Positions 20,938 to 39,489 of a stretch of 64,000 bases of DNA are shown one piece after another. The notes beneath the pieces were generated by a model. It ran no database searches and was not told the DNA's origin. It saw only the letters and a list, made by a program, of their open reading frames with translations. Made by a program: the position numbers and the translations under genes. The stretch is from Rhizobium sp. SG_E_25_P2 (GTDB taxonomy: Bacteria > Pseudomonadota > Alphaproteobacteria > Rhizobiales > Rhizobiaceae), in assembly GCF_029892285.1 (NCBI RefSeq), contig NZ_JARXVM010000002.1, forward strand, positions 310,001 to 374,000, written 5' to 3'. The first letter of the stretch is position 1, and each line of letters opens with the position of its first letter.

Positions 20938-22650
20938 TCAGAACAGGAAGTAGCGCTGCGCCATCGGCAGCACGGTCGCCGGTTCGCAGGTCAGCAGTAC
21001 GCCGTCGGCGCGGACTTCGTAGGTTTCCGGGTCAACCTCGACATGCGGGGTCAGGTCGTTGTGGATCATCGACTTCTTGGAGATGCCGCCGCGGGTGTTT
21101 CTGACGGCGACCATCTGCTTGGCCGTTCCAATCCTGCCCTGCAAGCCGGCGTCCAGCGCCGCCTGGCTGACGAAGGTGACAGACGTGTTGGTGCGGGCCT
21201 TGCCGTAGGCGCCGAACATATGGCGGTAATGCACCGGCTGCGGCGTCGGGATCGAGGCGTTGGGGTCGCCCATCGGGGCTGCTGCGATCATGCCGCCGAG
21301 CAGCACCATGTCTGGCTTGACGCCGAAAAAGGCCGGCGACCAGAGCACGAGGTCGGCGCGCTTGCCGACTTCGATCGAGCCGATCTCGTGGCTGAGGCCA
21401 TGGGCGATGGCCGGGTTGATGGTGTATTTGGCGATGTAGCGCTTGACGCGGACATTGTCGTTGTCGCCTTTTTCGTCTGGCAGGCTGCCGCGCTGGCGTT
21501 TCATCTTGTCGGCGGTCTGCCAGGTGCGGATCGCCACTTCGCCGACGCGGCCCATGGCCTGGCTGTCGGACGAAATGATCGAAAAGGCGCCCATGTCGTG
21601 GAGAATGTCTTCGGCCGCGATGGTTTCCTTGCGGATGCGGCTTTCGGCGAAAGCAATGTCCTCCGGGATCGATGGGCTGAGATGGTGGCAGACCATCAGC
21701 ATGTCCAGATGTTCCGCCAGCGTGTTGATCGTATAGGGGCGGGTCGGATTGGTCGACGACGGAATGACATTCAGCGAGCCGCAGACCTTGATGATGTCAG
21801 GCGCGTGACCGCCGCCTGCGCCTTCGGTGTGGAAGGCGTGGATGGTGCGGCCCTTCATGGCGGCCAGCGAATCCTCGACGAAGCCGGATTCATTGAGCGT
21901 GTCGGTGTGGATCATCACCTGAACGTCATACTCGTCGGCGACGGTGAGGCAGCAATCGATTGCGCCGGGGGTCGTGCCCCAGTCCTCGTGCAGCTTCAGC
22001 GCCGAAGCGCCGGCCAGGATCATTTCCTCAAGCGCTGCGGGCAGCGAGGCGTTGCCCTTGCCGGCGAAAGCCAGATTCATCGGGAAAGCGTCGGCGGCCT
22101 CGATCATGCGCTGGATATGCCAGGGGCCGGGCGTGCAGGTGGTGGCGAGCGTGCCATGCGCCGGGCCGGTGCCGCCGCCAAGCATGGTGGTCAGCCCGCT
22201 CATCAGCGCATCCTCGATCTGCTGCGGGCAGATGAAGTGGATATGGGCGTCCATGCCGCCGGCGGTGAGGATCTTGCTCTCGCCGGCGATAGCTTCAGTG
22301 CCGGGGCCGACGATGATGTTGACGCCCGGTTGGGTGTCGGGATTGCCGGCCTTGCCGATGGCGGCGATGCGGCCGTCCTTCAGGCCGACGTCAGCCTTGA
22401 CGATGCCCCAGTGGTCGATAATCAGCACATTGGTGATGACGGTGTCGACAGCGCCGTTGGCGCGGGTGACCTGGCTCTGGCCCATGCCGTCGCGGATGAC
22501 CTTGCCGCCGCCGAATTTCACTTCCTCGCCATAGGTGGTGTAATCCTTCTCCACCTCCACGAAGAGTTCGGTGTCGGCCAGGCGCAATTTGTCGCCGGTG
22601 GTGGGGCCGAACATGGAGGCGTAAGCCGCGCGGGACATTTTAAAGGACAT
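20938..22650 (-). CDS. ureC: Urease alpha (catalytic) subunit
   Basis: It hydrolyses urea to ammonia and carbamate at a two-nickel centre. The 570-residue length is standard. The nickel ligands and active-site motifs are present: [24 protein letters not shown] with the carbamylated Lys, [22 protein letters not shown], and the flap [17 protein letters not shown] lies before the ATG. It is the downstream structural gene of ureD-A-(DUF1272)-B-(LprI x2)-(GT-like)-C, five bases after the accessory gene. All catalytic residues appear intact, so the enzyme should be active when matured. Confidence 0.98.
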
Positions 22651-22654
22651 GGCG

Positions 22655-23299
22655 TCAAGCTCCTGAGGCGATGCGGAGGGAGGAAGTATCGAAATAACGG
22701 GTGAGGCGGCCTTCGCGGATACGGGCGTCGATCCAGCGACGCTCCGCTTCCCAAGGATGCCATTCCCAGCCGTGATGGCCGAAACCGGCGAGCAGGATCG
22801 TGTCGTCGGCGCGGGCGCGGCTCGCCAAAAATTCGGCGATGACGACCAGGCCGGTCGAGGGCGTCACATAGGGAGGCGGCGAATAGGCCGCGAGTTCGGC
22901 GTCGAGACGGTCATGGGTGGCGGCGGGCAGCACATAATGCGTCTTGCCTGCGTCCGCGCAGAAGGCGCCGAAGCCCGGGGAATAGTCGTAGCAGAAGTCA
23001 TCGAGTTCCGGATGGCTGATCGCCAGCGGCGCGCTGAGGGCGGCGAATTTTTCCGGGTTGCGGATGCTCCAGATCTCGGAGGCGGCGGCCACGCAAGGAT
23101 TGGCGCGCCAGCCGGGTTCTCCCAGCATCGTCTTGCCGGGCCGACCGGTGTTGCAGACGGCGACGATGTCTGTGCGTCCACCCAAAGGTCCGGCCGAGCG
23201 GCAATCATTGAAGCGGATGACGACGTCGGCGGTCTCTGTCAGGGACTGTTCGCCCTGACTGAGATCGGCATTGCCGACGATCATCACCCGCCGTGTCAT
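22655..23299 (-). CDS. Urease-operon accessory protein with glycosyltransferase-29-like motifs
   Basis: The 214-residue product starts [14 protein letters not shown] and continues [10 protein letters not shown] and [11 protein letters not shown]. This layout, a nucleotide-binding GN-x-S/D start followed by R-F-N and V/G-G-x-T-D, recalls the sialyltransferase (GT29/GT42-like) fold. [14 protein letters not shown] and [18 protein letters not shown] complete it. Homologues in rhizobial urease operons are annotated only as accessory proteins. Its place directly before ureC in a tight operon is clear. What it transfers, if anything, is unknown, and a role in nickel insertion is not implied by the sequence. 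Confidence 0.7.
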
Positions 23300-24348: not shown

Positions 24349-24654
24349 TCACAGCGCGCCCATCACCTGCTGGCGGAAGCCGTAGACCTCGCGCTTGCCG
24401 GACAGTGGGATCAGCGTGACAGTGCGCTTCTGGCCCGGCTCGAAACGGACGGCGGTGCCGGAGGGGATATCGAGGCGCATGCCGCGCGCCTTGTCACGAT
24501 CGAAATCCAGCCCCTTGTTGGTCTCATAGAAATGATAATGGCTGCCGACCTGGATCGGACGGTCGCCGGTGTTGGCGACGTCGAGGGTGACGGTGGGCAG
24601 GCCGGCATTGAGTTCGATCTCGCCGGCGGCGGGAATGAGTTCGCCTGGGATCAT
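24349..24654 (-). CDS. ureB: Urease beta subunit
   Basis: This is the small structural subunit of urease that packs around the UreC active site. The 101-residue product starts [18 protein letters not shown] and has [34 protein letters not shown] and the C-terminal [11 protein letters not shown]. These are all family hallmarks at the usual length. It is separate from ureA, with a DUF1272 gene between them, as in many rhizobia. Confidence 0.97.
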
Positions 24655-26229: not shown

Positions 26230-27204
26230 CTATTTTGTCGACTGCTGAAAAAAGCGCCAGGCCTCTTCGGTGGCGTCGACGTCGTAGGAAACTTTGCCGA
26301 GGGCGTTGGTGATTTTCAGCAAGGCAGTCGACGAGGGCCAGGTATGTCCGCCATCCGCGATGACGACGGATGCGAGCGACGTCCCACCCGCGCAGCCGGC
26401 GACCGTTGTTCTCGTGACGACGCCGCTTTCCGATGTCGCCGGCGCATCCTTGCAGGCGGCGATGTCTATCCAGCGCGTGAAGGCGGCGTCCGCGCCATAG
26501 CCCCAATAAGGACGCCCGCCGCCCTCGAATGGATTGACCGCGTCAGCCTTGCCGGCGAAGGCGATGATGGAGACTGGCTTCTTCGGCTTGCAGGTCGCGG
26601 CGTCCGGTTCGAACTTGCCGCCATCCACGGCCTTGGGATAGCCGGCGCGCAGGCCGGAGATCATGCCCGCCGCGGCGATCTTCTCGTTGGCGTCGCACAG
26701 ATACTGGCTCAGCATGCGCGCGCCGCCGGAAAAGCCGGTGGCGTAGATCCTGGTGGCGTCGATGCAGAATTTGGTCTCCAGCGCCGAGATGGCCTCGGAG
26801 ATATATGCTTCGTCTTTCTGGTCGTCGCCCTGGGTGACGCCCGGCACATACCAGGAGACCATGCCGGGACGATCGGCGGGAATGACGCCCTGAAGACCCG
26901 CGACGATGGCGCCGTCGCGCTCGGCAATGCGTTCCCAGCCGCTGCGGTCGAGCTGTTCGTCGGCATTGGAATTGCTGCCATGCAGATCGAGGACGAGCGC
27001 GGTGGGTTTGTCCGGATTGTAGCCCGTGGGCGCGAAGAAGACGATTCGCCGCTCCTTGCCGCCGGACTGGATCGTCATCTCGTGGCGGCCCGCTTCCTGT
27101 TTCGCGCCGCAACCCGAAGCCGAGGCTTCGCTTGCGCCGAGGGCCGTCAGCAACATGGTCGCGGCGATGACGGCGCCGCGCCGGCTTTCGAAAAATGACT
27201 TCAT
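26230..27204 (-). CDS. Secreted esterase, PHB depolymerase/LpqC family
   Basis: This is a polyhydroxyalkanoate-depolymerase or feruloyl-esterase type alpha/beta hydrolase. The 324-residue protein has a signal peptide ending near SAS-GC (about residue 30, and the Cys there may be a lipobox). It then has the oxyanion motif LVLDLHGSNSN and the nucleophile elbow ATGFSGGARM (S159). The His is in DGGHTWPSS, and Cys pairs are typical of secreted forms. The substrate is unknown. It sits between urtE and ureD in the same direction, but nothing ties it to urea metabolism. Confidence 0.88.
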   Translation of the reverse strand: MKSFFESRRGAVIAATMLLTALGASEASASGCGAKQEAGRHEMTIQSGGKERRIVFFAPTGYNPDKPTALVLDLHGSNSNADEQLDRSGWERIAERDGAIVAGLQGVIPADRPGMVSWYVPGVTQGDDQKDEAYISEAISALETKFCIDATRIYATGFSGGARMLSQYLCDANEKIAAAGMISGLRAGYPKAVDGGKFEPDAATCKPKKPVSIIAFAGKADAVNPFEGGGRPYWGYGADAAFTRWIDIAACKDAPATSESGVVTRTTVAGCAGGTSLASVVIADGGHTWPSSTALLKITNALGKVSYDVDATEEAWRFFQQSTK

Positions 27205-27312: not shown

Positions 27313-28008
27313 TCAGACCGTCAGATGCCGGCGGGCCTCCGGCGTATCCAGCGTCTCGGCAGGGCCTTCATGGACGATCTCGCCGCGATCCATAATATAG
27401 ACATGGTCGGCGAGTTCGCGGCAGAAATCGAGATATTGTTCGACCAGCAGGATCGCCATGCCGGTGGAATCGCGCAGATATTTGATGGCGCGGCCGATAT
27501 CCTTGATGATCGATGGCTGGATGCCTTCGGTCGGCTCGTCAAGCACCAGGATCTTCGGTCGGGTGACCAAAGCGCGGCCGATCGCCAGCTGCTGTTGCTG
27601 GCCGCCCGAGAGATCGCCGCCGCGACGACCGAGCATGGATTGCAGCACCGGAAACAGGCTGAAAATGTCGTCGGGAATGGTGCGGTCGCCGCGCTTGAGC
27701 GGCGCATACCCCGCCTCCAGGTTCTCCTTCACCGTCAGCAGCGGAAAGATCTCGCGTCCCTGCGGCACATAGCCGATGCCGAGCTTGGCGCGGGAATAGG
27801 GCGCAAGGCCATTCAGCGTCGCGCCGTTGAAGGCGATCGCGCCGCCGCTGACCGGATGCTGGCCGGTGATTGCCCGCAGCAGAGAGGATTTGCCGACGCC
27901 GTTGCGGCCGAGCACGCAGGTGATCTTGCCCATCTCGGCTTTGATCGAGACGCCGCGCAGCGCCTGCGCCGCGCCGTAGTGAAGATTGGCCTTTTCGACA
28001 GTCAGCAT
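27313..28008 (-). CDS. urtE: Urea ABC transporter, ATP-binding protein UrtE
   Basis: This is a LivF-type ATPase of the urea importer. The 231-residue protein has Walker A LGRNGVGKSSLL, the Q-loop YVPQGREIFP, signature LSGGQQQQLAIGRAL and Walker B KILVLDEPTEGIQ. It is the last gene of urtABCDE, in the standard order. A palindromic repeat separates it from urtD. Confidence 0.95.
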   Translation of the reverse strand: MLTVEKANLHYGAAQALRGVSIKAEMGKITCVLGRNGVGKSSLLRAITGQHPVSGGAIAFNGATLNGLAPYSRAKLGIGYVPQGREIFPLLTVKENLEAGYAPLKRGDRTIPDDIFSLFPVLQSMLGRRGGDLSGGQQQQLAIGRALVTRPKILVLDEPTEGIQPSIIKDIGRAIKYLRDSTGMAILLVEQYLDFCRELADHVYIMDRGEIVHEGPAETLDTPEARRHLTV

Positions 28009-28185: not shown

Positions 28186-28938
<753 letters not shown>

Positions 28939-28942
28939 CGTC

Positions 28943-30109
28943 TTACTCCGCGGCTTCGGCCTGGGCGGCGAGGGTGGCGTCGCGCGCCTTCTCGTCGTCC
29001 GCGGCCTTCTGATAGGATTTACGGGTGGCGATATACTGGGTCACCGTGCCGATGATGCCTTTGGGCAGGAACAGCGTCACCAGCACGAACAGGCCGCCCA
29101 GCGCAAACAGCCAGTATTCGGGGAAGGCGCCGGTGAAGAAGGTCTTGCCGGCATTGACGAGAACAGCGCCGATGATCGGGCCGATCAGCGTGCCGCGACC
29201 GCCCACCGCCGTCCAGATCACCACTTCGATGGAGTTGCCGGGTTCGAATTCGCCGGGATTGATGATGCCGACCTGCGGCACGAACAGCGCGCCGGCGATG
29301 CCCGCCATCATGGCCGAGACGACGAAGGTGAACAGCTTGATGTTTTCCACCCGGTAGCCGAGGAAGCGGGTCCGGCTTTCGGCGTCGCGCACGCCGATCA
29401 GCACCTTGCCGTATTTGGAGCGGACGATGGCCGAGGACAAAAGCAGGCACAGCGCCAGCATCAGCGCGCTCATGAAGAACAGCGTTGCGCGGGTGCCGTC
29501 GGATTGAACCGAGTAGCCGAGGATGTCCTTGAAATCGGTCAGGCCGTTATTGCCGCCGAAACCCATGTCGTTGCGGAAAAAGGCGAGCAGCAACGCATAG
29601 GTCATGGCCTGGGTGATGATCGACAGATAGACGCCGTTGACGCGAGAGCGGAAGGCGAACCAGCCGAAGATAAAGGCGAGAATGCCCGGCGCCGCGATCA
29701 CCATCAGCATCGCGAACCAGAACATGTCGAAGCCATGCCAGAACCAGGGCAGTTCCTTCCAGTTCAGGAACACCATGAAATCCGGCAGGATCGGATTGCC
29801 ATAGACGCCGCGCGGGCCGATCTGGCGCATCAGATACATGCCCATCGCATAGCCGCCGAGGGCAAAGAAGGCGGCATGGCCCAGTGAAAGGATGCCGCAA
29901 TAGCCCCAGACGAGATCCAGAGTGAGCGCCAGCAGAGCATAGGTCAGGTATTTCCCGAACAGGCTCATGACATAGGTCGGTATGCGGAAAGCGCTGTCGG
30001 CGGGCAACAACAGATTGGAGGCAGGGACCAGGATGCCGATCGCGAGAATGACCGCGATGACGATGACGATGCGTTGATCCAACGCGCGGAGGATAAAGCC
30101 GGTGATCAT
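28943..30109 (-). CDS. urtC: Urea ABC transporter, permease UrtC
   Basis: This is a LivM-type inner-membrane permease with about ten hydrophobic segments. The 388-residue protein begins MITGFILRALDQRIVIVIAV. Internal markers are YVMSLFGKYLTYALLALTLD, YCGILSLGHAAFFALGGYAM and VWTAVGGRGTLIGPIIGA. ATG 30109 overlaps the urtB stop (ATGA). The same frame is open upstream, but that stretch is in the urtB coding region. Confidence 0.95.
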   Translation of the reverse strand: MITGFILRALDQRIVIVIAVILAIGILVPASNLLLPADSAFRIPTYVMSLFGKYLTYALLALTLDLVWGYCGILSLGHAAFFALGGYAMGMYLMRQIGPRGVYGNPILPDFMVFLNWKELPWFWHGFDMFWFAMLMVIAAPGILAFIFGWFAFRSRVNGVYLSIITQAMTYALLLAFFRNDMGFGGNNGLTDFKDILGYSVQSDGTRATLFFMSALMLALCLLLSSAIVRSKYGKVLIGVRDAESRTRFLGYRVENIKLFTFVVSAMMAGIAGALFVPQVGIINPGEFEPGNSIEVVIWTAVGGRGTLIGPIIGAVLVNAGKTFFTGAFPEYWLFALGGLFVLVTLFLPKGIIGTVTQYIATRKSYQKAADDEKARDATLAAQAEAAE

Positions 30110-31725
30110 GCTTCGATCGCCCTTCCCTTGAGTGCGAAGAGACCACGCGGCCGCTTCTGAATGAAAAGGATGATGAGAACCAGAACCAGAATCTTGCCGA
30201 GCACGGCGCCGACGGTCGGCTCGAGGAACTTGTTGAGGATGCCGAGCGACAGGGCGCCGACCAGCGTGCCCCAGAGATTGCCGACGCCGCCGAACACCAC
30301 GACCATGAAGCTGTCGATGATGTAGGATTGGCCGAGGTTCGGGGACACATTGTCGATCTGACTGAGCGCCACCCCGGCGATGCCGGCGATGCCGGAGCCC
30401 AGCGCAAAGGTCAGCGCGTCGACCCAAGGCGTGCGGATGCCCATGGAGGAGGCCATCCGGCGGTTCTGGGTGACAGCGCGCATCTGCAGGCCATAAAACG
30501 AGCGTTTCATCAGCACGAGCAGCGCGAAGAAGACCGAGAGCGAGAAGACGACGATCCAGAGGCGGTTCCAGGTAATCGTCATGCCGCCAAGCGGGAAGGA
30601 GCCCGCCATCCAGGAGGGATTGCCGACTTCCTGATTGGTCGGACCGAAAATGGTGCGAACGAGCTGCTGCAGGATCAGCGAAACGCCCCAGGTCGCCAGC
30701 AGTGTTTCGAGCGGTCGGCCATAGAGGAAGCGGATGACGCCCCGCTCGATGATGAGACCCACGACGCCGGTGACGAGGAAGGCGACGGGCAGCGCGATGG
30801 CCAGCGACAGGTCGAACAGGCCCGGATAATTGTCGCGGATGATGTCCTGCACCACGAAGGTGGAATAGGCGCCGAGCATGACCATTTCGCCATGCGCCAT
30901 GTTGATAATGCCCATGACGCCGAAGGTTATGGCGAGGCCGATGGCGGCAAGCAGCAGAACCGAGCCGAGCGACATGCCGTACCAGATATTCTGAAGCGTG
31001 TCCCAGAGCGCGAGATTATCCTGGATGGATGCGATCGCCGCGTCTATGTCCGGTTTGACCGAAGCATCCGCCGTGCCGGCGGCGGCCATCAGGATGCCGA
31101 TGGCGTCGCGGCCGCCGATTTTGTCCAGGATCGTCGCTATGGCCGCCTTCTTGGCGTCCGCGTCGAGATCCGAGCCGAGCACGGAGACCGACCGGGCGGT
31201 TTCCATGCGGGTCTTGACGACCGGATCGGTTTCCTTGGCGATCGCGGCCTCAAGAAGGCCGAGGTTTTCGGCGCTGGGAGATTTCAGCACGGCGTCGGCG
31301 GCCTGAAGCCGGACATTGCGATCGGGGCTTAGCAAGGTCAGCCCGCCCAGCGCCGAACGGATGGCGCGGCGGAGATTGTTGTTGACCCTGATCTTGGTCA
31401 GCGCGCCTTTCGGTTCTTCGCCGACAATCTCTCCCGACAGCGGGTCGACAAGCGAAAGATTGGTGCCGGCCGGTTTGGTCAGGAACACGGCATTGTCGGA
31501 CTTGCGGAAATAGAGATCGCCTTCCCCGAGCGCCTCGAGCACCGGAACCACATTGGGATCGCCGGTGGCCGCCAACCCCTGGACGATGGCGGGAATGTCG
31601 GGCAGCTTGGCGGAGGCCAAGGCGTTGATCTGTGTCTTCAGGTCCTGCTGGGCCCATGCAAGCGTCGTGGCGACGCTCAAAAGCAGCGATATGGCCAGGA
31701 GAATGGTTCTGAATGCGCGTGACAT
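30106..31725 (-). CDS. urtB: Urea ABC transporter, permease UrtB
   Basis: This is a LivH-type permease with the long N-terminal extracytoplasmic domain that marks UrtB. The protein is about 539 residues. A signal-like segment (TILLAISLLLSVATTLAWA) and a helical repeat region (about 20-240) precede the membrane part. That part has AITFGVMGIINMAHGEMVML, GRPLETLLATWGVSLILQQ and FGGVGNLWGTLVGAL. ATG 31725 is chosen after GGTGGA, and TTG 31740 is an alternative. It overlaps urtC by four bases. Confidence 0.95.
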   Translation of the reverse strand: MSRAFRTILLAISLLLSVATTLAWAQQDLKTQINALASAKLPDIPAIVQGLAATGDPNVVPVLEALGEGDLYFRKSDNAVFLTKPAGTNLSLVDPLSGEIVGEEPKGALTKIRVNNNLRRAIRSALGGLTLLSPDRNVRLQAADAVLKSPSAENLGLLEAAIAKETDPVVKTRMETARSVSVLGSDLDADAKKAAIATILDKIGGRDAIGILMAAAGTADASVKPDIDAAIASIQDNLALWDTLQNIWYGMSLGSVLLLAAIGLAITFGVMGIINMAHGEMVMLGAYSTFVVQDIIRDNYPGLFDLSLAIALPVAFLVTGVVGLIIERGVIRFLYGRPLETLLATWGVSLILQQLVRTIFGPTNQEVGNPSWMAGSFPLGGMTITWNRLWIVVFSLSVFFALLVLMKRSFYGLQMRAVTQNRRMASSMGIRTPWVDALTFALGSGIAGIAGVALSQIDNVSPNLGQSYIIDSFMVVVFGGVGNLWGTLVGALSLGILNKFLEPTVGAVLGKILVLVLIILFIQKRPRGLFALKGRAIEA

Positions 31726-31793
31726 TTTGGTGTCCACCAATGTTTCGCCGGAGAATGCGAGCGGTTCGTTTCAGGCGTCAGTTTTGAACCTTC

Positions 31794-31996: not shown

Positions 31997-33286
31997 TCAG
32001 GAGCCCTTGCCGCCGCACTTTCCGCTGACGACATTGAAGTTGCCGCAGGACATCGGCTTGCGCCAATCGGAGATCAGATCCTTGGAGTCGGGCAGGTAAT
32101 CGGACCATTCGTCGCCGACGACGGCAGCCGTCTGCTGGACGATGTCGAACTGGCCGTCGGCCTGGATTTCGCCGATCAGCACCGGCTTGGTGATGTGATG
32201 GTTCGGCATGACGGTTGAGTAACCGCCCGACAGGTTCGGCACGGAGACGCCGATGATCGCGTCGAGGACCGGGTCGGTGTCGGTGGTGCCGGCGGCTTCG
32301 ACAGCCTTCACCCAGGCGTTGAAGCCGATATAGGCGGCTTCCATCGGGTCGTTGGTGACGCGCTTGTCGTTCTTGGTGTAGGCGTGCCAGGTCTTGATGA
32401 ACTCGGCATTGACCGGGGCGTCGACGGACTGGAAGTAGTTCCAGGCAGCCAGATGGCCGACCAGCGGCTTGGTGTCGAGGCCGGCGAGTTCTTCTTCACC
32501 CACCGAGAAGGCGACGACCGGGATGTCTTCGGCCTTGATGCCCTGGTTGCCGAGTTCCTTATAGAACGGCACGTTGGCGTCACCGTTGATGGTGGAGACG
32601 ACAGCGGTCTTCTTGCCGGCGGAGCCGAACTTCTTGATGTCGGACACGATCGTCTGCCAATCGGAATGACCGAACGGCGTGTAGTTGATCATGATGTCCT
32701 CTTCCTTGACGCCCTTGGACATCAGGTAGGCCTTCAGGATCTTGTTGGTCGTCTGGGGATAGACGTAGTCGGTGCCGGCCAGAACCCAACGCTCGACGCC
32801 TTCGGTGTTGGCGAGATAGTCGACGGCCGGGATGGCCTGCTGGTTCGGAGCGGCGCCGGTGTAGAAGATGTTGCGCGACGATTCTTCGCCTTCATACTGG
32901 ACCGGATAGAACAGGATGGAGTTCAGCTCTTCGAAAACCGGCAGGACCGACTTGCGCGACGACGAGGTCCAGCAACCGAACACGGCCGAAACCTTGTCCT
33001 TTTCGATCAGGTCGCGGGCCTTTTCGGCAAACAGCGGCCAATCGGAGGCCGGGTCGACGACGACGGCTTCGAGCTTCTTGCCGAGAACGCCGCCCTTCTT
33101 GTTCTGCTCTTCGACGAGCATCAGCATGGCGTCCTTGAGCGTGGTCTCGGAAATGGCCATGGTGCCGGACAGCGAATGCAGGATGCCGATCTTGATCGTA
33201 TCATCGGCGGCAAAGGCGCCCTGGAAGGCGGTCGCCGACAGCATGCCGGCGACGAATGCGCTGGTGAGCATGGACTTGAGTTTCAT
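31997..33286 (-). CDS. urtA: Urea ABC transporter, substrate-binding protein UrtA
   Basis: This is the periplasmic binding protein of the high-affinity urea importer. The 429-residue protein has a signal peptide ending near AFA-AD (about 26/27). It then has DTIKIGILHSLSGTMAISE, VSAVFGCWTSSSRKSVLPV, LFYPVQYEGEE and GVEEEDIMINYTPFGHSDWQ-type blocks found in UrtA/FmdD proteins rather than in amino-acid LivJ proteins. It heads the urt operon. The upstream gap holds a perfect palindrome at 33381. Confidence 0.96.
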   Translation of the reverse strand: MKLKSMLTSAFVAGMLSATAFQGAFAADDTIKIGILHSLSGTMAISETTLKDAMLMLVEEQNKKGGVLGKKLEAVVVDPASDWPLFAEKARDLIEKDKVSAVFGCWTSSSRKSVLPVFEELNSILFYPVQYEGEESSRNIFYTGAAPNQQAIPAVDYLANTEGVERWVLAGTDYVYPQTTNKILKAYLMSKGVKEEDIMINYTPFGHSDWQTIVSDIKKFGSAGKKTAVVSTINGDANVPFYKELGNQGIKAEDIPVVAFSVGEEELAGLDTKPLVGHLAAWNYFQSVDAPVNAEFIKTWHAYTKNDKRVTNDPMEAAYIGFNAWVKAVEAAGTTDTDPVLDAIIGVSVPNLSGGYSTVMPNHHITKPVLIGEIQADGQFDIVQQTAAVVGDEWSDYLPDSKDLISDWRKPMSCGNFNVVSGKCGGKGS

Positions 33287-33380
33287 GGAATTCCCCTCTC
33301 GCTTGGTGGCGCAACGGTTTAATGAAGTCTTAATTTCCGTTGTCTGCGGGGACTATCCGTCCGGATTGTGCAATGCGACA

Positions 33381-33396
33381 TACGTCATTTGACGTA
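33381..33396. promoter_or_regulatory. Palindrome TACGTCA-TT-TGACGTA upstream of urtA
   Basis: This is a perfect 7-bp inverted repeat with a 2-base centre, about 95 bases upstream of the urtA start in the 229-base gap between urtA and the divergent SHOCT gene. It is positioned as an activator or repressor site for urt. The NarL-type response regulator encoded nearby at 37895 is a candidate binder. This is inference. Confidence 0.45.
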
Positions 33397-33515
33397 AGGG
33401 GAGGGGTAAAAGAGGGAAGAATTGCGCCGGCGTCGCGCTTTCTCCGCATGGGACGAAGACAGGATAGGGCTGCCGTGCTAGGCCGCGCAGAGGATAAAAA
33501 CAGGGACCACGACCC

Positions 33516-34364
33516 ATGCGACAGATTAGCGAAGACGGCCGGCGCATTCTATCCGACGCGGCGCAGCGGCATGGCGTGAGCCTTGACGCGGTCGAGCACC
33601 TCATTCTGGCGCTTGCGGCGAGCGGCGGATCGCAGGCGCAGTTCAACCATCCCGATCTCGGCGGCATGGGCCAGTGGTCGCAAGGCGGCATGATCATGAT
33701 CGGCGACATGTTCAACAACGGCCTCAAGGCCAAAGTCGACTGGCTTTGCCAGGATCTGGCCGGCCTGTTGCGCGGACAAGACGTTTTTGCGCCAGCGCCG
33801 GTTTACCAGAGCCAGCAGCAGGGCGCCGGCGTGAGCCTGTTCGTGCCGGGTTCATATGGTCAGGCAAGCGGATGGCCTGAGGAACTCGGGCAACCGTCCT
33901 CGGTGGGATCGCAGAACAATCTGCGCTACGCCTTCTTCCCCGCGACGCGGCGACTGGCGATCGACATGGGCGGGGCGCTGACCATCTATGACACCGGCGA
34001 TCACCAGATCGGCGGCTTCTCGCAGCAGCAGGGCGGCGACCAATCGCTGACCTTCACCTCGCAATATGGACTGGTCCGCGTCAGCGACCTGCCAGTCGTG
34101 CGCCTCGCGTCTCCTATATCGGAGCCGGTATCGACGCCGGACGTTCGGCAGGAACACCACCAGCCGATCGAACCGGCAACGGAAACACCGATGATCCAGG
34201 CGGCCGTCGCGCCGGTCCTAAACACGCCGGCCCCCGCCGCGCCAGCGAGCGTTGAAGACGATATTTTCTCCAAGATCGAACGCTTGGCGGCCCTGCATGC
34301 GAAGGGCATTCTCACGGATGAGGAATTCTCGACCAAGAAAAGCGAGTTGCTGGCCCGGCTTTGA
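33516..34364 (+). CDS. SHOCT-domain protein
   Basis: The 282-residue soluble protein starts MRQISEDGRRILSDAAQRHG and has a middle segment of mixed strand and Gly/Gln-rich stretches. A Pro/Ala-rich linker follows (about 220-252), and the protein ends with a clear SHOCT helix pair, IFSKIERLAALHAKGILTDE then EFSTKKSELLARL. SHOCT modules are thought to mediate oligomerisation or nucleic-acid contacts. The first part resembles proteins of unknown function in rhizobia. It lies 90 bases upstream of the sensor kinase gene and may share its promoter. Confidence 0.75.
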   Translation: MRQISEDGRRILSDAAQRHGVSLDAVEHLILALAASGGSQAQFNHPDLGGMGQWSQGGMIMIGDMFNNGLKAKVDWLCQDLAGLLRGQDVFAPAPVYQSQQQGAGVSLFVPGSYGQASGWPEELGQPSSVGSQNNLRYAFFPATRRLAIDMGGALTIYDTGDHQIGGFSQQQGGDQSLTFTSQYGLVRVSDLPVVRLASPISEPVSTPDVRQEHHQPIEPATETPMIQAAVAPVLNTPAPAAPASVEDDIFSKIERLAALHAKGILTDEEFSTKKSELLARL

Positions 34365-34454
34365 TCGTCAGTGTCCGTCCCTGACATCCTATCTCGCAGG
34401 GGTGACAGAAGCGAGGGCTTGCGGACAAAAGCCCATCCATGCTTTTGATGTTGC

Positions 34455-37400
34455 ATGAGCGAAAATTACTCAAAATCGGGAGGCGCCGTCGATTTGGGCG
34501 CCGCTCTTGCCGCTAAGGGCCATATGACGGCGCGCCAGCGCATCATTCCCGTCCGGCGTGACTATAATCGCTGGGTGGCGAACCAAACGCTCGAAGATTA
34601 TGCGCTGCGCTTCACCGCCAAAAGCGCGCGTCGCTATACGCCGAGCCGGATTTCGCAGACGGCGATCGGCGCGATATCTTTTCTGGCGCTGGAAGCGGTC
34701 GGCGGGGCGATAACCCTGTCCTATGGCACCACCAATGCGATCTTTGCGATCATCGTCGCCTCGATCCTGCTGTTGCTGATCGGCGTGCCGATCAGTCGCT
34801 ATGCGATCCGCCATGGCGTCGATATCGACCTGCTGACGCGCGGCGCGGGCTTTGGCTATATCGGCTCGACAGTGACCTCGTTGATCTACGCGACCTTCAC
34901 CTTCATCCTGTTCGCCATCGAAGCTTCGATCATGACCGGGGCGCTGGAGCTCGCCTTCGGCGTGCCGCTCTGGCTGGGCTACATCATCAGCGCCGTGGCG
35001 GTGATCCCGCTGGTCACGCATGGCGTCAAGCTGATTTCGCGTTTCCAGCTCATCACCCAGCCGATCTGGATCATTCTCAACATCCTGCCCTTCATCTTCA
35101 TCGCATTCGCCGATTGGCAGAAATTCGAGGTCTGGCTGGGTTTTGCGGGGCGTGGACATGAATCGGGCGAAATCGGCACGGTGGCGCCCTTCGATCTCGC
35201 GATGTTTGGGGCGGCGTCCGCAGTCATTCTTGCGCTGATGGCGCAGATCGGCGAGCAGGTCGACTTTCTGCGCTTCCTGCCGGCGGAAGGCAAACCGCAG
35301 ACCATCACCCAGAAGATCGCTCGTTTTCTCGCCGGCCCAGGCTGGGTGGTGGTGGGGGCGCCCAAACTTCTGGCCGGTTCGTTCCTGGTGGTGTTGGCGC
35401 TGAGTTCGGGCGTGCCGGCCGAACTGGCCGCTGATCCCGCCCATATGTATGTCACGGCCTTCGGCTATATGGTTCCGAACCAGACCGCCGCGCTGATCCT
35501 GACCGCCGGTTTCGTGGTGGTGTCGCAGCTCAAGATCAATGTGATGAACGCTTACGCGGGCTCGCTCGCCTGGTCGAACTTCTTTTCGCGGTTGACGCAT
35601 AGCCATCCGGGCCGCGTCGTCTGGTTGTTCTTCAACGTCGCCATCGCACTGCTTTTGATGGAGCTTGGCATCTACAAACTGCTCGAAGAAGTGTTTGGCG
35701 TCTTTTCGATCGTCGCCGCCGCCTGGCTGTGCACGATTTCCGCCGATCTCTTCATCAATAAGCAGCTTGGGCTTGCCCCGCCCGGCATCGAGTTCAAGCG
35801 CGCCCATCTCTATGACGTCAATCCGGTCGGCATGGGCGGCATGCTGATCTCGGCGGCGGTGGCGCTGACGGCGCATTTCGGCCTTTTCGGCGATTTCGCC
35901 GCCGCATTGGCCATCTATCTCGTTCCGATCGTCGCCTTCATCGCTGCGCCGGCGATCGCCTGGGCCACGAAGGGCAAATATTACCTCGCCCGCAAGCCGC
36001 GTCAGGCCTGGAAATCACTGTCCTCGATCACCTGCTCGATCTGCGAACATCCGTTCGAGCCCGAGGACATGGCCTGGTGTCCGGCCTATTCCGCGCCGAT
36101 CTGCTCGCTGTGCTGTTCGCTCGACAGTCGTTGCCATGATCTCTGCAAGCCGAAGGCCCGGCTCGAATATCAGGCGCGGGAAGTGGCGGCGACATTCCTG
36201 CCGGAACGCGTCATTACCGCGCTCGGCACGCGGCTCGGGCGCTATGGCATGATCCTGTTCGCGGCCTTGGTCAGCATCGGCGCAACCTTGTGGATGATCG
36301 CCCGGCATGCCGGGGCCGAAACGCCCGAGACGGCCATGGTGGTGAACGCCACCGTCATGCTGGTCTTCGTGGTGTTTTCCATGCTGGCGGGCATCGCCGC
36401 CTGGTTCTTCGTGCTCGCCCATGACAGCCGGGTGGTGGCCGAGGAGGAAAGCTCCCGCCAGACCACGCTGCTGCTCAAGGAAATTTCCGCCCACAAAAAG
36501 ACCGACGCGGCGCTGCAACAGGCCAAGGAGACCGCGGAAGCCGCCAACCGCGCCAAGAGCCGCTATGTCGTGGGGCTGACCCATGAATTGCGCACGCCGC
36601 TCAACGCCGTGCTCGGCTATGCGCAACTTCTGGAGCGCGACGAGGCGATTCCGGACGCCAAGCGCTCGGCGCTCCGGGTGATCAAGCGCAGCGCCGACCA
36701 TCTGTCCGGGCTGATTGACGGGTTGCTCGACATTTCCCGTATCGAGGCGGGTCGGCTGCAGGTCTATTCCAACGAAATCAACGTCTATGATTTTCTCGAC
36801 CAGATCGTCAGCATGATGGCTCCGCAGGCCGAGGCGAAGGGGCTGGACTTCACGCTGAGGCGCGATCCGGCCCTGCCGCAATATGTGCGCACCGACGAGA
36901 AGCGTCTCCGGCAGATCCTCGTCAATCTCTTGTCCAACGCGGTCAAATACACCGCCGCCGGCAGCGTGGTTCTCGATGTGCAGTATCGCAATCAGGTGGC
37001 CACGTTCACGGTGTCCGACACGGGTTCCGGCATGCCGGAGGACGATCTCAAGGTGGTGTTCGAGCCGTTCCAGCGCGGCTCCGGCGCGCAATCGAAACTG
37101 GCGCCGGGTCTCGGGCTCGGGCTCACCATCACGCGGCTGTTGACCCAGACGCTGGGTGGCGAGATCACTGTCGAGAGCCGGTTGGGGGAGGGCACGACCT
37201 TCCGTGTCAGGCTGATGCTTTACGGCTTGGCGCGTTCGGAAAAGCCCAAGGCCGACCAGAAGCTGCTGACCTATACTGGGCCGCGCCGGACGGTGATGGT
37301 GGTCGACGATAATGAGGATCATCGCGAATTGATGCGCGAATTGCTGGCGCCGCTTGATTTCGTGGTGCTGACCGCCGAATCCGGGCCGGAATGTCTGATG

Positions 37401-37898
37401 CTGATCGAAGGGGCCAATCCGGATATTTTCCTGGTCGACATTTCCATGCCCGGCATGAGCGGCTGGGAACTGGCCGTCAGGCTGCGCGACATCGGCCAGA
37501 CCGCGCCAGTCGTGATGTTGTCGGCCAATGTCGGCGACGGCGCGCCCGCCGCCGCGAGCGGCGATCACAATGACACGCTGTCCAAGCCCATTGATTTCCG
37601 CCAGCTGCAGGACAAGCTGGCGCTCTGGCTCGGCGTGGCCTGGGTCTATGCGGTGGCTGGGCCTGAGGCGACTCCGTCTGCGGATCTGCGCAGCCCGGGC
37701 GCGGGTCATCTGCAGGATCTGATCCGGCTGGGCGAAATCGGTTATGTGAGGGGGATCGAAAGCAAGCTCGGCGAGCTTGCCAAGACCGAGGAAAACAGGC
37801 ACTTCACCGATGTCATGACAGCCCATATCCGCGCCTTCAACATGGACGCCCTGCTCGCCGATCTCAGAAAGCTCGAGCGCGAGGAGTCGTCGTCATGA
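34455..37898 (+). CDS. Hybrid sensor histidine kinase with N-terminal NCS1 permease-like domain
   Basis: The 1147-residue membrane protein has this order. A 12-helix purine-cytosine/allantoin permease (NCS1)-like region occupies about 60-510 and includes TRGAGFGYIGSTVTSLIYAT. A Cys-rich knuckle with CSIC, CP, CSLCC, C and C spans about 523-565. Two more membrane helices lie at about 595-660, and a coiled coil at about 670-705. The HisKA domain has THELRTPLNAVLGY (phospho-His about 710). An HATPase domain carries NLLSNAVKY, DTGSGMP and GLGLGLTITR. A receiver domain has phospho-Asp 995 (FLVDISMPGMSG). No HPt motif is visible at the C-terminus. The next gene starts in the stop codon (ATGA). No clear ribosome site precedes ATG 34455. 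Transporter-like kinases such as CbrA show that such domains can sense or carry a ligand. Confidence 0.88.
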   Translation: MSENYSKSGGAVDLGAALAAKGHMTARQRIIPVRRDYNRWVANQTLEDYALRFTAKSARRYTPSRISQTAIGAISFLALEAVGGAITLSYGTTNAIFAIIVASILLLLIGVPISRYAIRHGVDIDLLTRGAGFGYIGSTVTSLIYATFTFILFAIEASIMTGALELAFGVPLWLGYIISAVAVIPLVTHGVKLISRFQLITQPIWIILNILPFIFIAFADWQKFEVWLGFAGRGHESGEIGTVAPFDLAMFGAASAVILALMAQIGEQVDFLRFLPAEGKPQTITQKIARFLAGPGWVVVGAPKLLAGSFLVVLALSSGVPAELAADPAHMYVTAFGYMVPNQTAALILTAGFVVVSQLKINVMNAYAGSLAWSNFFSRLTHSHPGRVVWLFFNVAIALLLMELGIYKLLEEVFGVFSIVAAAWLCTISADLFINKQLGLAPPGIEFKRAHLYDVNPVGMGGMLISAAVALTAHFGLFGDFAAALAIYLVPIVAFIAAPAIAWATKGKYYLARKPRQAWKSLSSITCSICEHPFEPEDMAWCPAYSAPICSLCCSLDSRCHDLCKPKARLEYQAREVAATFLPERVITALGTRLGRYGMILFAALVSIGATLWMIARHAGAETPETAMVVNATVMLVFVVFSMLAGIAAWFFVLAHDSRVVAEEESSRQTTLLLKEISAHKKTDAALQQAKETAEAANRAKSRYVVGLTHELRTPLNAVLGYAQLLERDEAIPDAKRSALRVIKRSADHLSGLIDGLLDISRIEAGRLQVYSNEINVYDFLDQIVSMMAPQAEAKGLDFTLRRDPALPQYVRTDEKRLRQILVNLLSNAVKYTAAGSVVLDVQYRNQVATFTVSDTGSGMPEDDLKVVFEPFQRGSGAQSKLAPGLGLGLTITRLLTQTLGGEITVESRLGEGTTFRVRLMLYGLARSEKPKADQKLLTYTGPRRTVMVVDDNEDHRELMRELLAPLDFVVLTAESGPECLMLIEGANPDIFLVDISMPGMSGWELAVRLRDIGQTAPVVMLSANVGDGAPAAASGDHNDTLSKPIDFRQLQDKLALWLGVAWVYAVAGPEATPSADLRSPGAGHLQDLIRLGEIGYVRGIESKLGELAKTEENRHFTDVMTAHIRAFNMDALLADLRKLEREESSS

Positions 37899-38818
37899 CC
37901 AGCCAGCAGGCGCCGCGCGACATTATCCTTCTGGTGGACGACAGTCCCGATTCGCTCAGTTTCCTGACCGACGCCTTGGAAGCCTCCGGCTATTCGGTGC
38001 TGATCGCCACGTCAGGGGCGGCGGCTCTGTCGATTTCCGAGCGGATCACGCCGGATCTCATCCTGCTCGACGCGGTGATGCCCGGCTTGGACGGGTTCGA
38101 GACCTGCGCCCGGCTGAAAGGCATGGGCAGCGTGGCGCAGGCGCCGGTGATCTTCATGACCGGACTGACCGAGACGGAACATGTGGTGCGCGCGCTGGGA
38201 GCCGGCGGCGTCGATTATCTGACCAAGCCGATCAATGTCGAGGAATTGCGGGCGCGCATCCGCGTGCATCTCGCCAATGCGCGCTCCGCCCAGAGCGCGC
38301 GGGTGGCGCTCGACGCGGCAGGCCGGCATCTTCTGGCGGCCCGGGACGACGGTAAAATCCTATGGTCGACCCCGCAGGCGACGCGGCTGGTCAATGCCGC
38401 CACCGGCCGCGACGACGGGCTGGATCTGGTGGCTGACAAGATCGGCGCATGGATTCGCGAGCGCCGGCTGGCGCATCCTCACGACGCCCAGGCGATCACC
38501 ATCGAGACAGGCCGGGAGGCGTCCCTGTCGCTGACCTTCATCGGCGCGATCGGTCAGGACGAAAACCTGTTTCGGCTGACCAGTCAGACCCAGGCGCAGG
38601 ACGATGAGAGGCTGCGCCAGCATTTCCAGCTGACGATCCGCGAGGCGGAAGTGCTGGCCTGGATCGCCAAGGGCAAATCCAACCGCGACATCGGCGAGAT
38701 CCTCGGCCTGTCGTCGCGCACAGTGAACAAACATCTCGAGCAGATCTATGTGAAGCTGGGCGTCGAAAATCGCGCTTCGGCTGCGGTGAAGGCGGCGAAT
38801 ATCCTGATGCAGGGCTGA
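37895..38818 (+). CDS. Response regulator, receiver plus LuxR-type DNA-binding domain
   Basis: The 307-residue protein has a receiver domain (residues about 9-125) with acidic pocket D15/D16, phospho-Asp D59 (LILLDAVMPG), and K111 (GVDYLTKP). It then has a linker domain of about 100 residues. A C-terminal NarL/LuxR helix-turn-helix follows (LTIREAEVLAWIAKGKSNRD, then IGEILGLSSRTVNKHLEQIY). It is translationally coupled to the hybrid kinase and is almost certainly its partner. The likely targets are the neighbouring nitrogen genes, but no site is proven. Confidence 0.93.
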   Translation: MTSQQAPRDIILLVDDSPDSLSFLTDALEASGYSVLIATSGAAALSISERITPDLILLDAVMPGLDGFETCARLKGMGSVAQAPVIFMTGLTETEHVVRALGAGGVDYLTKPINVEELRARIRVHLANARSAQSARVALDAAGRHLLAARDDGKILWSTPQATRLVNAATGRDDGLDLVADKIGAWIRERRLAHPHDAQAITIETGREASLSLTFIGAIGQDENLFRLTSQTQAQDDERLRQHFQLTIREAEVLAWIAKGKSNRDIGEILGLSSRTVNKHLEQIYVKLGVENRASAAVKAANILMQG

Positions 38819-38910: not shown

Positions 38911-39489
38911 TCAGGCGGCGGTTTCTTCGGTGAAGGAAGGCATGTTCATGCCGCCAGGAGGCGGGCCCATCGGGCCTTTCGGAGCATTTTCGGTTACGAA
39001 GGTCGTAAACTGCTCTTCGGTGACATAGCCCTGGCCTTCCGAATCGATCTTCGAGAACAGTTCCTGCGCGCGAGCGTCGTCTTCGCCGCCAGGAGCCTTG
39101 GCGAGGAATTCGGATTCGGTCAGCTTTGCGTCCGAATCGGCGTCGAGATCACTGTAAAGGCTGCTCGGATCGCCCATTCCCGCCATTGGCGGCATGCCGC
39201 CCTGCTGGCGCAGACCCATCATCGCGCCCATGGCGTCGCCGCCCATGCGGGATTCCGGCGCTTGCTTTGCGGCCGAGAGCTGGTCGAAAGTGACCGAACC
39301 GGTTCCTTCCGTGTCGATTTTGGAATAAAGTTTGGTTGCCGCTTCTTCCGACATTTTGGAAGGACGGCTTGACACGAATTCGGACTGGCTCAATGCGCCA
39401 TTTTGATCAGTGTCGGTCTTGTTGAACATTTCCTGTTGTTTGGCAAGCATCGCCGCCATGCCGCCAGAGGCGGCGGATACGCTGGTCAT
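38911..39489 (-). CDS. EF-hand calcium-binding protein
   Basis: The 192-residue protein contains four EF-hand-like loops in two pairs: DTDQNGALSQSE (about 25-36), DTEGTGSVTFDQ (about 58-69), DADSDAKLTESE (about 118-129) and DSEGQGYVTEEQ (about 147-158). A Met/Gly/Pro-rich linker separates the pairs. No signal peptide is visible, so it may be cytoplasmic or exported by another route. Loops 1 and 3 look most complete. Its role is unknown. It diverges from tolQ across an AT-rich gap. Confidence 0.85.
   Translation of the reverse strand: MTSVSAASGGMAAMLAKQQEMFNKTDTDQNGALSQSEFVSSRPSKMSEEAATKLYSKIDTEGTGSVTFDQLSAAKQAPESRMGGDAMGAMMGLRQQGGMPPMAGMGDPSSLYSDLDADSDAKLTESEFLAKAPGGEDDARAQELFSKIDSEGQGYVTEEQFTTFVTENAPKGPMGPPPGGMNMPSFTEETAA

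Follow-up and report, generated by a model that had tools for sequence, protein, structure and literature searches.

A transporter-fused hybrid histidine kinase with a putative NCS1-related membrane domain is associated with urea and short-chain amide genes in Rhizobium sp. SG_E_25_P2 and its relatives

Fusions of a membrane solute-transporter domain to a (hybrid) histidine kinase have been described for the SLC5/STAC systems CrbS/CrbR (MxtR/ErdR), RpuS/RpuR and CbrA (PMC9100948; PMC5715377; PMC13022988), and a preprint on CbrA calls such fusions rare and their signalling mechanism open (PMC13022988). As far as these sources describe them, CrbS and RpuS act with a LuxR-family regulator and control genes of nutrient uptake or use, with an inverted-repeat operator in the case of CrbR. 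Here, we analysed a 64,000-nucleotide stretch of Rhizobium sp. SG_E_25_P2 (NZ_JARXVM010000002.1, positions 310,001 to 374,000; hereafter the window), which encodes a hybrid histidine kinase of 1147 aa (34455..37898, plus strand) and a response regulator of 307 aa (37895..38818, plus strand). This two-component system is probably a sensor of urea and/or short-chain amides (formamide, acetamide) that activates the genes for taking them up and hydrolysing them, and control of urt and fmd genes by the pair is well supported in silico. Among the papers listed by literature searches aimed at such a kinase, with subscription papers mostly outside their coverage, none was seen to describe one.

The original prediction, made by a model from the DNA letters alone, had outlined a protein with a 12-helix region, a kinase core and a receiver, coupled to a LuxR-type regulator, and both proteins were confirmed as such by Pfam and, for the helices, by hydropathy. 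The kinase consists of an NCS1-like 12-TM (transmembrane) domain (residues ~63-505, with 12 hydropathy peaks at 70-501), a Cys cluster (527-564), a linker, and the HisKA (701-766), HATPase_c (813-921) and Response_reg (947-1055) domains; two further TM peaks at 598-616 and 636-654, absent from that outline, form a second membrane segment (598-654), and as the number of helices is even, the kinase core and the NCS1 C-terminus would face the same compartment, presumably the cytoplasm. In an alignment of 80 rows, H710, N828 and D855 are present in 80/80 and D995 in 78/80, the remaining two being gaps, and all features of a hybrid HisKA kinase (H-box His, N-box Asn, G boxes and receiver Asp) were found. 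A phosphotransfer domain in the C-terminal tail was considered and rejected, the candidate His 1124 (TAHIRAFN) being His in just 15/80 rows. The regulator, whose ORF overlaps that of the kinase by 4 bp, matches Response_reg at 11-123 and GerE (LuxR) at 245-300, with a poorly conserved segment in between, and has a homologue in 153 of 157 loci with a fused kinase.

Kinase core, receiver and LuxR-type partner are thus arranged as in CrbS and RpuS, and the likeness to CbrA drawn in the original prediction is supported at the level of a fused transporter. The present system differs, however, in its NCS1-related permease, in the Cys knuckle and TM hairpin placed between permease and kinase, and in its urea and amide targets. 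The SSF (SLC5) domain PF00474 gave no match to the kinase at E 10. As to STAC, the comparison covered the Pfam matches of the kinase and its family members, and no STAC domain was among these. An SSF protein on the same contig was also considered as a CrbS-like kinase and rejected, since its 786-aa ORF carries no kinase domains.

The NCS1 class of the membrane domain, as originally proposed, is not returned by Pfam directly: PF02133 matched 0/62 family members, even at E 1, and found nothing in the strain's own genome at E 0.001. The label holds by profile-profile comparison (hhalign), in which kinase residues 24-515, taken from a 62-row alignment, scored 99.46% against 25 NCS1 permeases (E 3.1e-22, 405 columns), while three shuffles and a reversed profile stayed at or below 5.3%. 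NCS1 permeases and 21 sodium-solute symporters (SSS) were linked at 93.9%, so that hhalign is able to detect relatives at such a distance, and yet the kinase domain scored only 2.5% against the SSS set. Two unfused permeases connect the domain with NCS1, as both match PF02133: one at locus L222 is 30% identical to kinase residues 44-516, and a Klebsiella "cytosine permease" without a kinase (locus L312) is 38.6% identical to residues 43-571. Based on profile comparison and these bridging sequences, rather than on a direct Pfam match, we regard the 12-helix part as a remote NCS1 relative. A Foldseek search with a low-confidence AlphaFold2 model (pLDDT 52.6) ranked CodB and Mhp1 chains 1-4 with TM-scores of 0.35-0.38 by query length, which weakly supports an NCS1 fold. 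A scan of the collection viral_contigs for more diverse sequences to model from found none. N-terminal Pfam matches to 24 families (E 0.0057 or worse; DUF6526 in 15 members, Ribonucleas_3_3 in 12) were judged to be chance.

The 12-TM domain is homologous to the NCS1 permeases Mhp1 and CodB (PF02133) and has an invariant equivalent of Mhp1 Asn318, while it differs from these permeases in its lack of Pfam matches, in changed sodium-site residues and in the fused kinase. Ser312 and Thr313 of Mhp1, which we take to be the sodium-site residues, align with Lys360 in 62/62 and Ile361 in 61/62 members; position 312 is variable among NCS1 permeases themselves, and a basic residue is found there also in the unfused permeases L222, L224 and L241. 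Asn318 corresponds to N365 and Gln121 to E156, both invariant in 62/62, whereas the stacking Trp117 corresponds to Phe/Leu152, Gln42 to Phe76 and Gly219 to Val257. In Mhp1, roles in the pocket are described for all five residues, and Asn318 hydrogen-bonds one N/O face of hydantoin (PMC4195764). The substrate-site comparison suggested in the original prediction hence gave a divided picture, with the fully conserved, amide-binding Asn retained and the aromatic stacking and sodium features lost.

A sensor of allantoin, hydantoin or nucleobases, as the class label and the distant relationship with Mhp1, CodB and further NCS1 proteins might imply, is in our view very improbable: the neighbouring genes are those of urea and amides, the stacking Trp is replaced by Phe/Leu, and the kept Asn would suit any N-C=O ligand. 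Another option is that urt and fmd are indeed regulated, but in response to nitrogen status or to a product (for instance ammonium or a nitrogen metabolite inside the cell) instead of a bound urea or amide, with the NCS1 domain left as a membrane anchor or passive relic. The SLC5 domain of CbrA has been reported to be non-essential for signal perception (PMC9100948), and by this precedent the permease part may not be the sensor here either; the exchanges to Lys360 and Ile361 moreover make sodium coupling look lost. Nonetheless, we consider this option unlikely, as N365 and E156 are invariant, which counts for a ligand pocket, and as a passive anchor should drift, while the mean column identity of the 12-TM part (0.71) is close to that of HisKA (0.73) and above that of the receiver (0.53). 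The basic residue at position 312 of the three unfused permeases likewise counts against this option.

The Cys cluster, noted already in the original prediction, comprises eight residues (527, 530, 542, 550, 553, 554, 560 and 564) spaced C-x2-C-x11-C-x7-C-x2-C-C-x5-C-x3-C. With some play in the gaps, 157 of the 159 proteins extracted show this pattern, namely all 157 fused members, whereas L222 and L223, both unfused permeases, do not. Searching with seven Cys led to the identical outcome, and neither the 62-row nor the 80-row alignment contains an exchange at any of the eight Cys. The tail of the Klebsiella permease (CxxC...CSLC) holds two CxxC pairs and, by eye, lacks C542, C554, C560 and C564, which suggests two metal sites, of which one would stem from the permease and the other would have come with the kinase. 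This was the one tailed unfused permease seen: the places that it matched in 398 genomes of the phylum all lie in frames of at least 894 aa, except that of L222, which is tail-less. Of the proposed redox or metal switch, the invariance stands, and both a redox switch and a structural metal are candidate roles; that half of the cluster occurs in an unfused permease of a urease operon speaks against a switch specific to the kinase alone. The same two CxxC pairs, together with the service of the kinase to formamidase and amidase clusters without urease in view, make it highly unlikely that the cluster is the true sensor (of redox state or of a metal such as zinc, or nickel supplied to urease) with the urea genes merely as output; the conservation in every fused member would fit such a sensor, but a structural zinc knuckle fits it equally. 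Profile matches of the Cys segment to the Protein Data Bank (CRIPT and a zinc-finger protein, E 1.6 and 7) were weak and judged to be chance.

Concerning the gene neighbourhood, a conserved link between this kinase and urea genes, the absence of which had been named beforehand as grounds for refutation, proved strong. Stretches of up to 20 kb were fetched for 77 diverse loci from 34 families and compared with 80 Rhizobiaceae-type loci of close kin (L001-L080). At least one of urtA, ureC, fmdA and amiE was found in 72/77 diverse loci (31/34 families), and urtA or ureC in 76/80 Rhizobiaceae-type loci, while 104 UrtA places in 150 genomes lead to the estimate that a random 20-kb stretch of a 4.5-Mb genome holds urtA ~0.3% of the time. 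In relatives with a divergent urtA, the starts of urtA and kinase lie less than 600 bp apart in 91/137 loci. In the window itself, the pair is divergent from urtABCDE as predicted, but not immediately adjoining, as a gene for a SHOCT-domain protein of 282 aa (33516..34364, plus strand, by Pfam) lies in between; it is probably not part of the system, since in the locus comparison its relatives occupy this position only in L001 and another position in L163.

Two kinds of cluster recur beside the kinase. One combines urt with urease; the other has a urt-like transporter together with formamidase (NF045496) and, in some cases, aliphatic amidase (NF009802). A third branch of kinases without a receiver (L182, L216 and the Paracoccus plasmid locus L313) adjoins FmdA formamidase, AmiS/UreI and FmdB, the AmiS/UreI protein of L216 being assigned by its likeness to that of L182. 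As all three share one substrate class, they point to urea and small amides as ligand class, and urea and short-chain amides are the common denominator of the neighbourhoods. The ligand class of the original prediction was therefore kept for urea and widened to short-chain amides by the formamidase, aliphatic amidase and AmiS/UreI neighbours; its allantoin and nucleobase part was dropped, as no annotated neighbour family (not every cluster being annotated) points there and Trp117 is exchanged. The unfused relatives, which count for the same reading, stand in matching context: L222 is flanked by CN_hydrolase, a Peripla_BP_5 protein and an AmiR-like protein. The Klebsiella permease (L312, 7944-9551), whose gene immediately follows ureG, is a candidate urea transporter and, of the unfused relatives seen, the closest. 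In Bradyrhizobium, a second urt-like cluster beside acetamidase/formamidase and amidase genes has been argued to be a carrier of acetamide or formamide, not urea (PMC3098086), and both amides support growth of a Pseudomonas strain that has an amiE-fmdAB-urtABCDE cluster but also an ami operon on a plasmid (PMC13209695).

The link between kinase and urt genes extends to a putative operator. A 16-bp palindrome, TACGTCATTTGACGTA (33381..33396; TACGTC-N4-GACGTA), lies 94 bases before the start codon of urtA and shows a NarL-like 7-2-7 arrangement, in keeping with the GerE domain found in the regulator. TACGYN6RCGTA occurs once in the window, versus 0.01 expected, and TACGYN5GACGTA has a single place in the strain's own 5.56-Mb genome, namely this one. 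A divergent urtA lies within 6 kb in 137 loci; 120 of their urtA/kinase regions contain the strict palindrome (76/76 Rhizobiaceae-type, 44/61 diverse), with 124 sites in 73,775 bases compared to 16 in 2,763,793 bases elsewhere, a 290-fold excess. Over all loci, TACGN8CGTA occurs 154 times, in 145 cases no more than 700 bp upstream of the kinase, UrtA or FmdA. The palindrome precedes FmdA by 80-123 bp in six loci, a urtA located several kb away by 92 and 97 bp in L209 and L219, and the called kinase ORF start by 42-92 bp in loci without nearby urt (L005-L008, L150 and L151). In a control of 30 urtA loci from the order, the site was present in 11/11 urtA upstream regions beside a kinase and in 0/19 others, of which 18 belong to genomes without a full-length kinase match and one (L299) to a genome with the kinase on other contigs.

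At the level of single positions, the flanks of the first site in 45 diverse loci reach at most 0.69 bits per column, except for a fixed A directly before the site. Among 28 distinct sites, positions 5/12 are complementary in 22 (shuffle mean 15.5; reached by 15/2000 shuffles) and positions 6/11 in 17 (shuffle mean 12.8; reached by 77/2000), and no enrichment was seen for 7/10 and 8/9. The regulator is predicted to bind this palindrome as its operator. High-affinity NarL sites have the same 7-2-7 arrangement, e.g., the engineered TACCCCTAAAGGGGTA (PMC4549865), and share with the site described here the 16-bp heptamer-2-heptamer palindrome starting with TAC and ending with GTA, but they differ in the inner heptamer bases, and the present system has no tie to nitrate. 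The site differs also from the ACTU sites of SLC5/STAC systems, such as TACTACCATCGTCGAAT. As a separate observation, different palindromes of the 7-2-7 type (TGGGTGAATTTACCCA and TGGGTGGTCCTACCCA), possibly lineage-specific operators, are located at a comparable position in the urtA upstream regions of L180 and L181. A promoter scan of 33200-34560 found no sigma-70-like site.

Several observations weigh against a urea and amide receptor acting through this operator, in addition to the CbrA precedent. The structure model, computed from 80 Rhizobiaceae-type sequences, is of low confidence (pLDDT 52.6, pTM 0.48), the Mhp1 residues were mapped through alignments at ~16% identity, and the pocket positions of Gln42 and Gly219 are among those not retained. 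No urea or amide gene is in view in 5/77 diverse loci (L150, L151, L154 and the short L183 and L221), and neither urtA nor ureC in 4/80 Rhizobiaceae-type loci (L005-L008). A backward-read control pattern matched seven times in the strain's own genome, so that the single occurrence of the palindrome is not itself rarer than chance and its position, not its rarity, is what counts. Furthermore, the strict site is missing from 17/61 diverse urtA/kinase regions; five of these have a site with one mismatch and L184 has one under a looser pattern, and of the 11 left, L153 carries a site before the kinase and L191 before FmdA, leaving nine urtA loci (L149, L152, L155, L179-L181, L196, L199 and L201) with no site in that region under any form tried. 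Seven urease-type loci (L197, L203, L205, L207, L217, L218 and L220) contain no TACGN8CGTA in 20 kb, urtA being outside these stretches. Finally, the Fisher p of 1.8e-8 for the control of 30 loci is uncorrected for relatedness.

Architecture, NCS1 homology, the invariance of Cys and catalytic residues, the gene association, the site and its co-occurrence with the kinase were computed directly. Building on these, we infer the ligand, the binding of the site by the regulator, activation rather than repression, the signalling route, a metal in the Cys cluster and the roles of the permease and Cys parts as follows. The 12-helix domain would derive from an NCS1 permease of amide or urea operons and act as ligand receptor (transceptor), where substrate in the NCS1 pocket could change the arrangement of bundle and hash. 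The signal would then pass via the cytoplasmic Cys-rich metal knuckle and the two-helix hairpin to the dimeric kinase, upon which H710 would be phosphorylated and the phosphate transferred via receiver residue D995 to the partner regulator. Its LuxR/NarL-type domain would bind TACGTC-N4-GACGTA and activate urtABCDE or, in other lineages, fmd and ami genes. A comparable output is known from AmiC/AmiR, where amidase genes are induced by small amides; that system, however, works through a binding protein together with an RNA antiterminator (PMC13209695), while a membrane kinase and a DNA-binding regulator would take these parts here.

The N-terminal part of the kinase found matches (E 0.001, weak permease matches counted) in 14/190 genomes of the class, 67/398 of the phylum and 34/150 of the order, and relatives are encoded in at least 570 stretches of the collection genome_contigs. 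Plasmids contribute 530 matching records of 72,556, among them 342 from Klebsiella and 78 from Sinorhizobium, and 306 of the 530 are typed as conjugative. One of them, the Klebsiella IncFIB/IncFII conjugative plasmid of L311 (NZ_CP073789.1 95278-125221), carries at L311 14001-18264 the kinase together with an unannotated regulator ORF, divergent from a formamidase-urtEDCBA cluster, with the palindrome form TACGTCATTTAACGTA in between. The pSymB replicon of Sinorhizobium meliloti Rm41 likewise holds kinase, regulator and urtA-E, along with one site. By description, this cluster looks like the "UTS" urea transporter (UrtABC/AmiF) of Klebsiella CG307 (PMC13060141); the preprint treats the transporter cluster as a lineage trait, and a term count of its main text gave 0 mentions of "two-component" or "histidine kinase". 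Where the plasmid records listed name kinase or regulator at all, the name is a generic one (ATP-binding protein, response regulator, hybrid sensor histidine kinase, ArcB, hypothetical). Two records of "Acinetobacter phage MD-2021a" (CAKLQH020000001.1 and CAKLQF020000001.1; 329 and 379 kb), possibly mislabelled plasmids or large phage-plasmids, also encode the kinase, there under the name ArcB. As a tentative scenario, to which we give somewhat less than even weight, an NCS1 permease of urease or amidase operons with a metal-knuckle tail may have been captured by a hybrid kinase, become a receptor dedicated to urea/amides with a 7-2-7 operator of its own, and dispersed among Pseudomonadota as well as to conjugative plasmids of Klebsiella, there controlling a plasmid-borne urea/amide uptake cluster.

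The predicted target operon in the window lies on the minus strand and comprises urtA (31997..33286, substrate-binding protein of the urea ABC transporter, TIGR03407 above cut-off), urtB (30106..31740, TIGR03409), urtC (28943..30427, TIGR03408, with a match from residue 148 and an ORF start probably placed too far upstream), urtD (28186..28938, TIGR03411) and urtE (27313..28008, TIGR03410). Family models further identified ureC (20938..22650, minus strand, urease alpha subunit), ureB (24349..24654, minus strand, urease beta subunit) and, on the same strand, UreG as context, and a presumed UreF gave no NCBIfam match at E 1e-10. Within the urease cluster, a 214-aa ORF (22655-23299) without a Pfam or NCBIfam match at the thresholds used has relatives in many Rhizobium urease clusters (49-56% identity). 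Directly downstream of urtE lies a gene for an esterase/PHA-depolymerase-like protein (26230-27204; NF050058, under its cut-off), to which an ORF after urtE in several Agrobacterium-type loci is related (41-48% identity). An EF-hand protein (38911-39489) is encoded directly downstream of the regulator in convergent orientation, in the locus comparison at that place only in L001.

Taken together, sequence comparison sets this system apart as a variant of transporter-fused kinases that appears distinct from the SLC5-STAC type (CbrA/CrbS) in permease family, linker, targets and operator. As a case independent of SLC5, it combines a clear substrate class with a predicted operator and an unfused sister permease, which together make permease-to-kinase signalling testable. 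For the urt and fmd genes of many bacteria, it provides a predicted regulator and regulon. If the reading as a urea and amide sensor holds true, the kinase would be, as far as the literature searched shows, the first membrane receptor kinase dedicated to urea or formamide.

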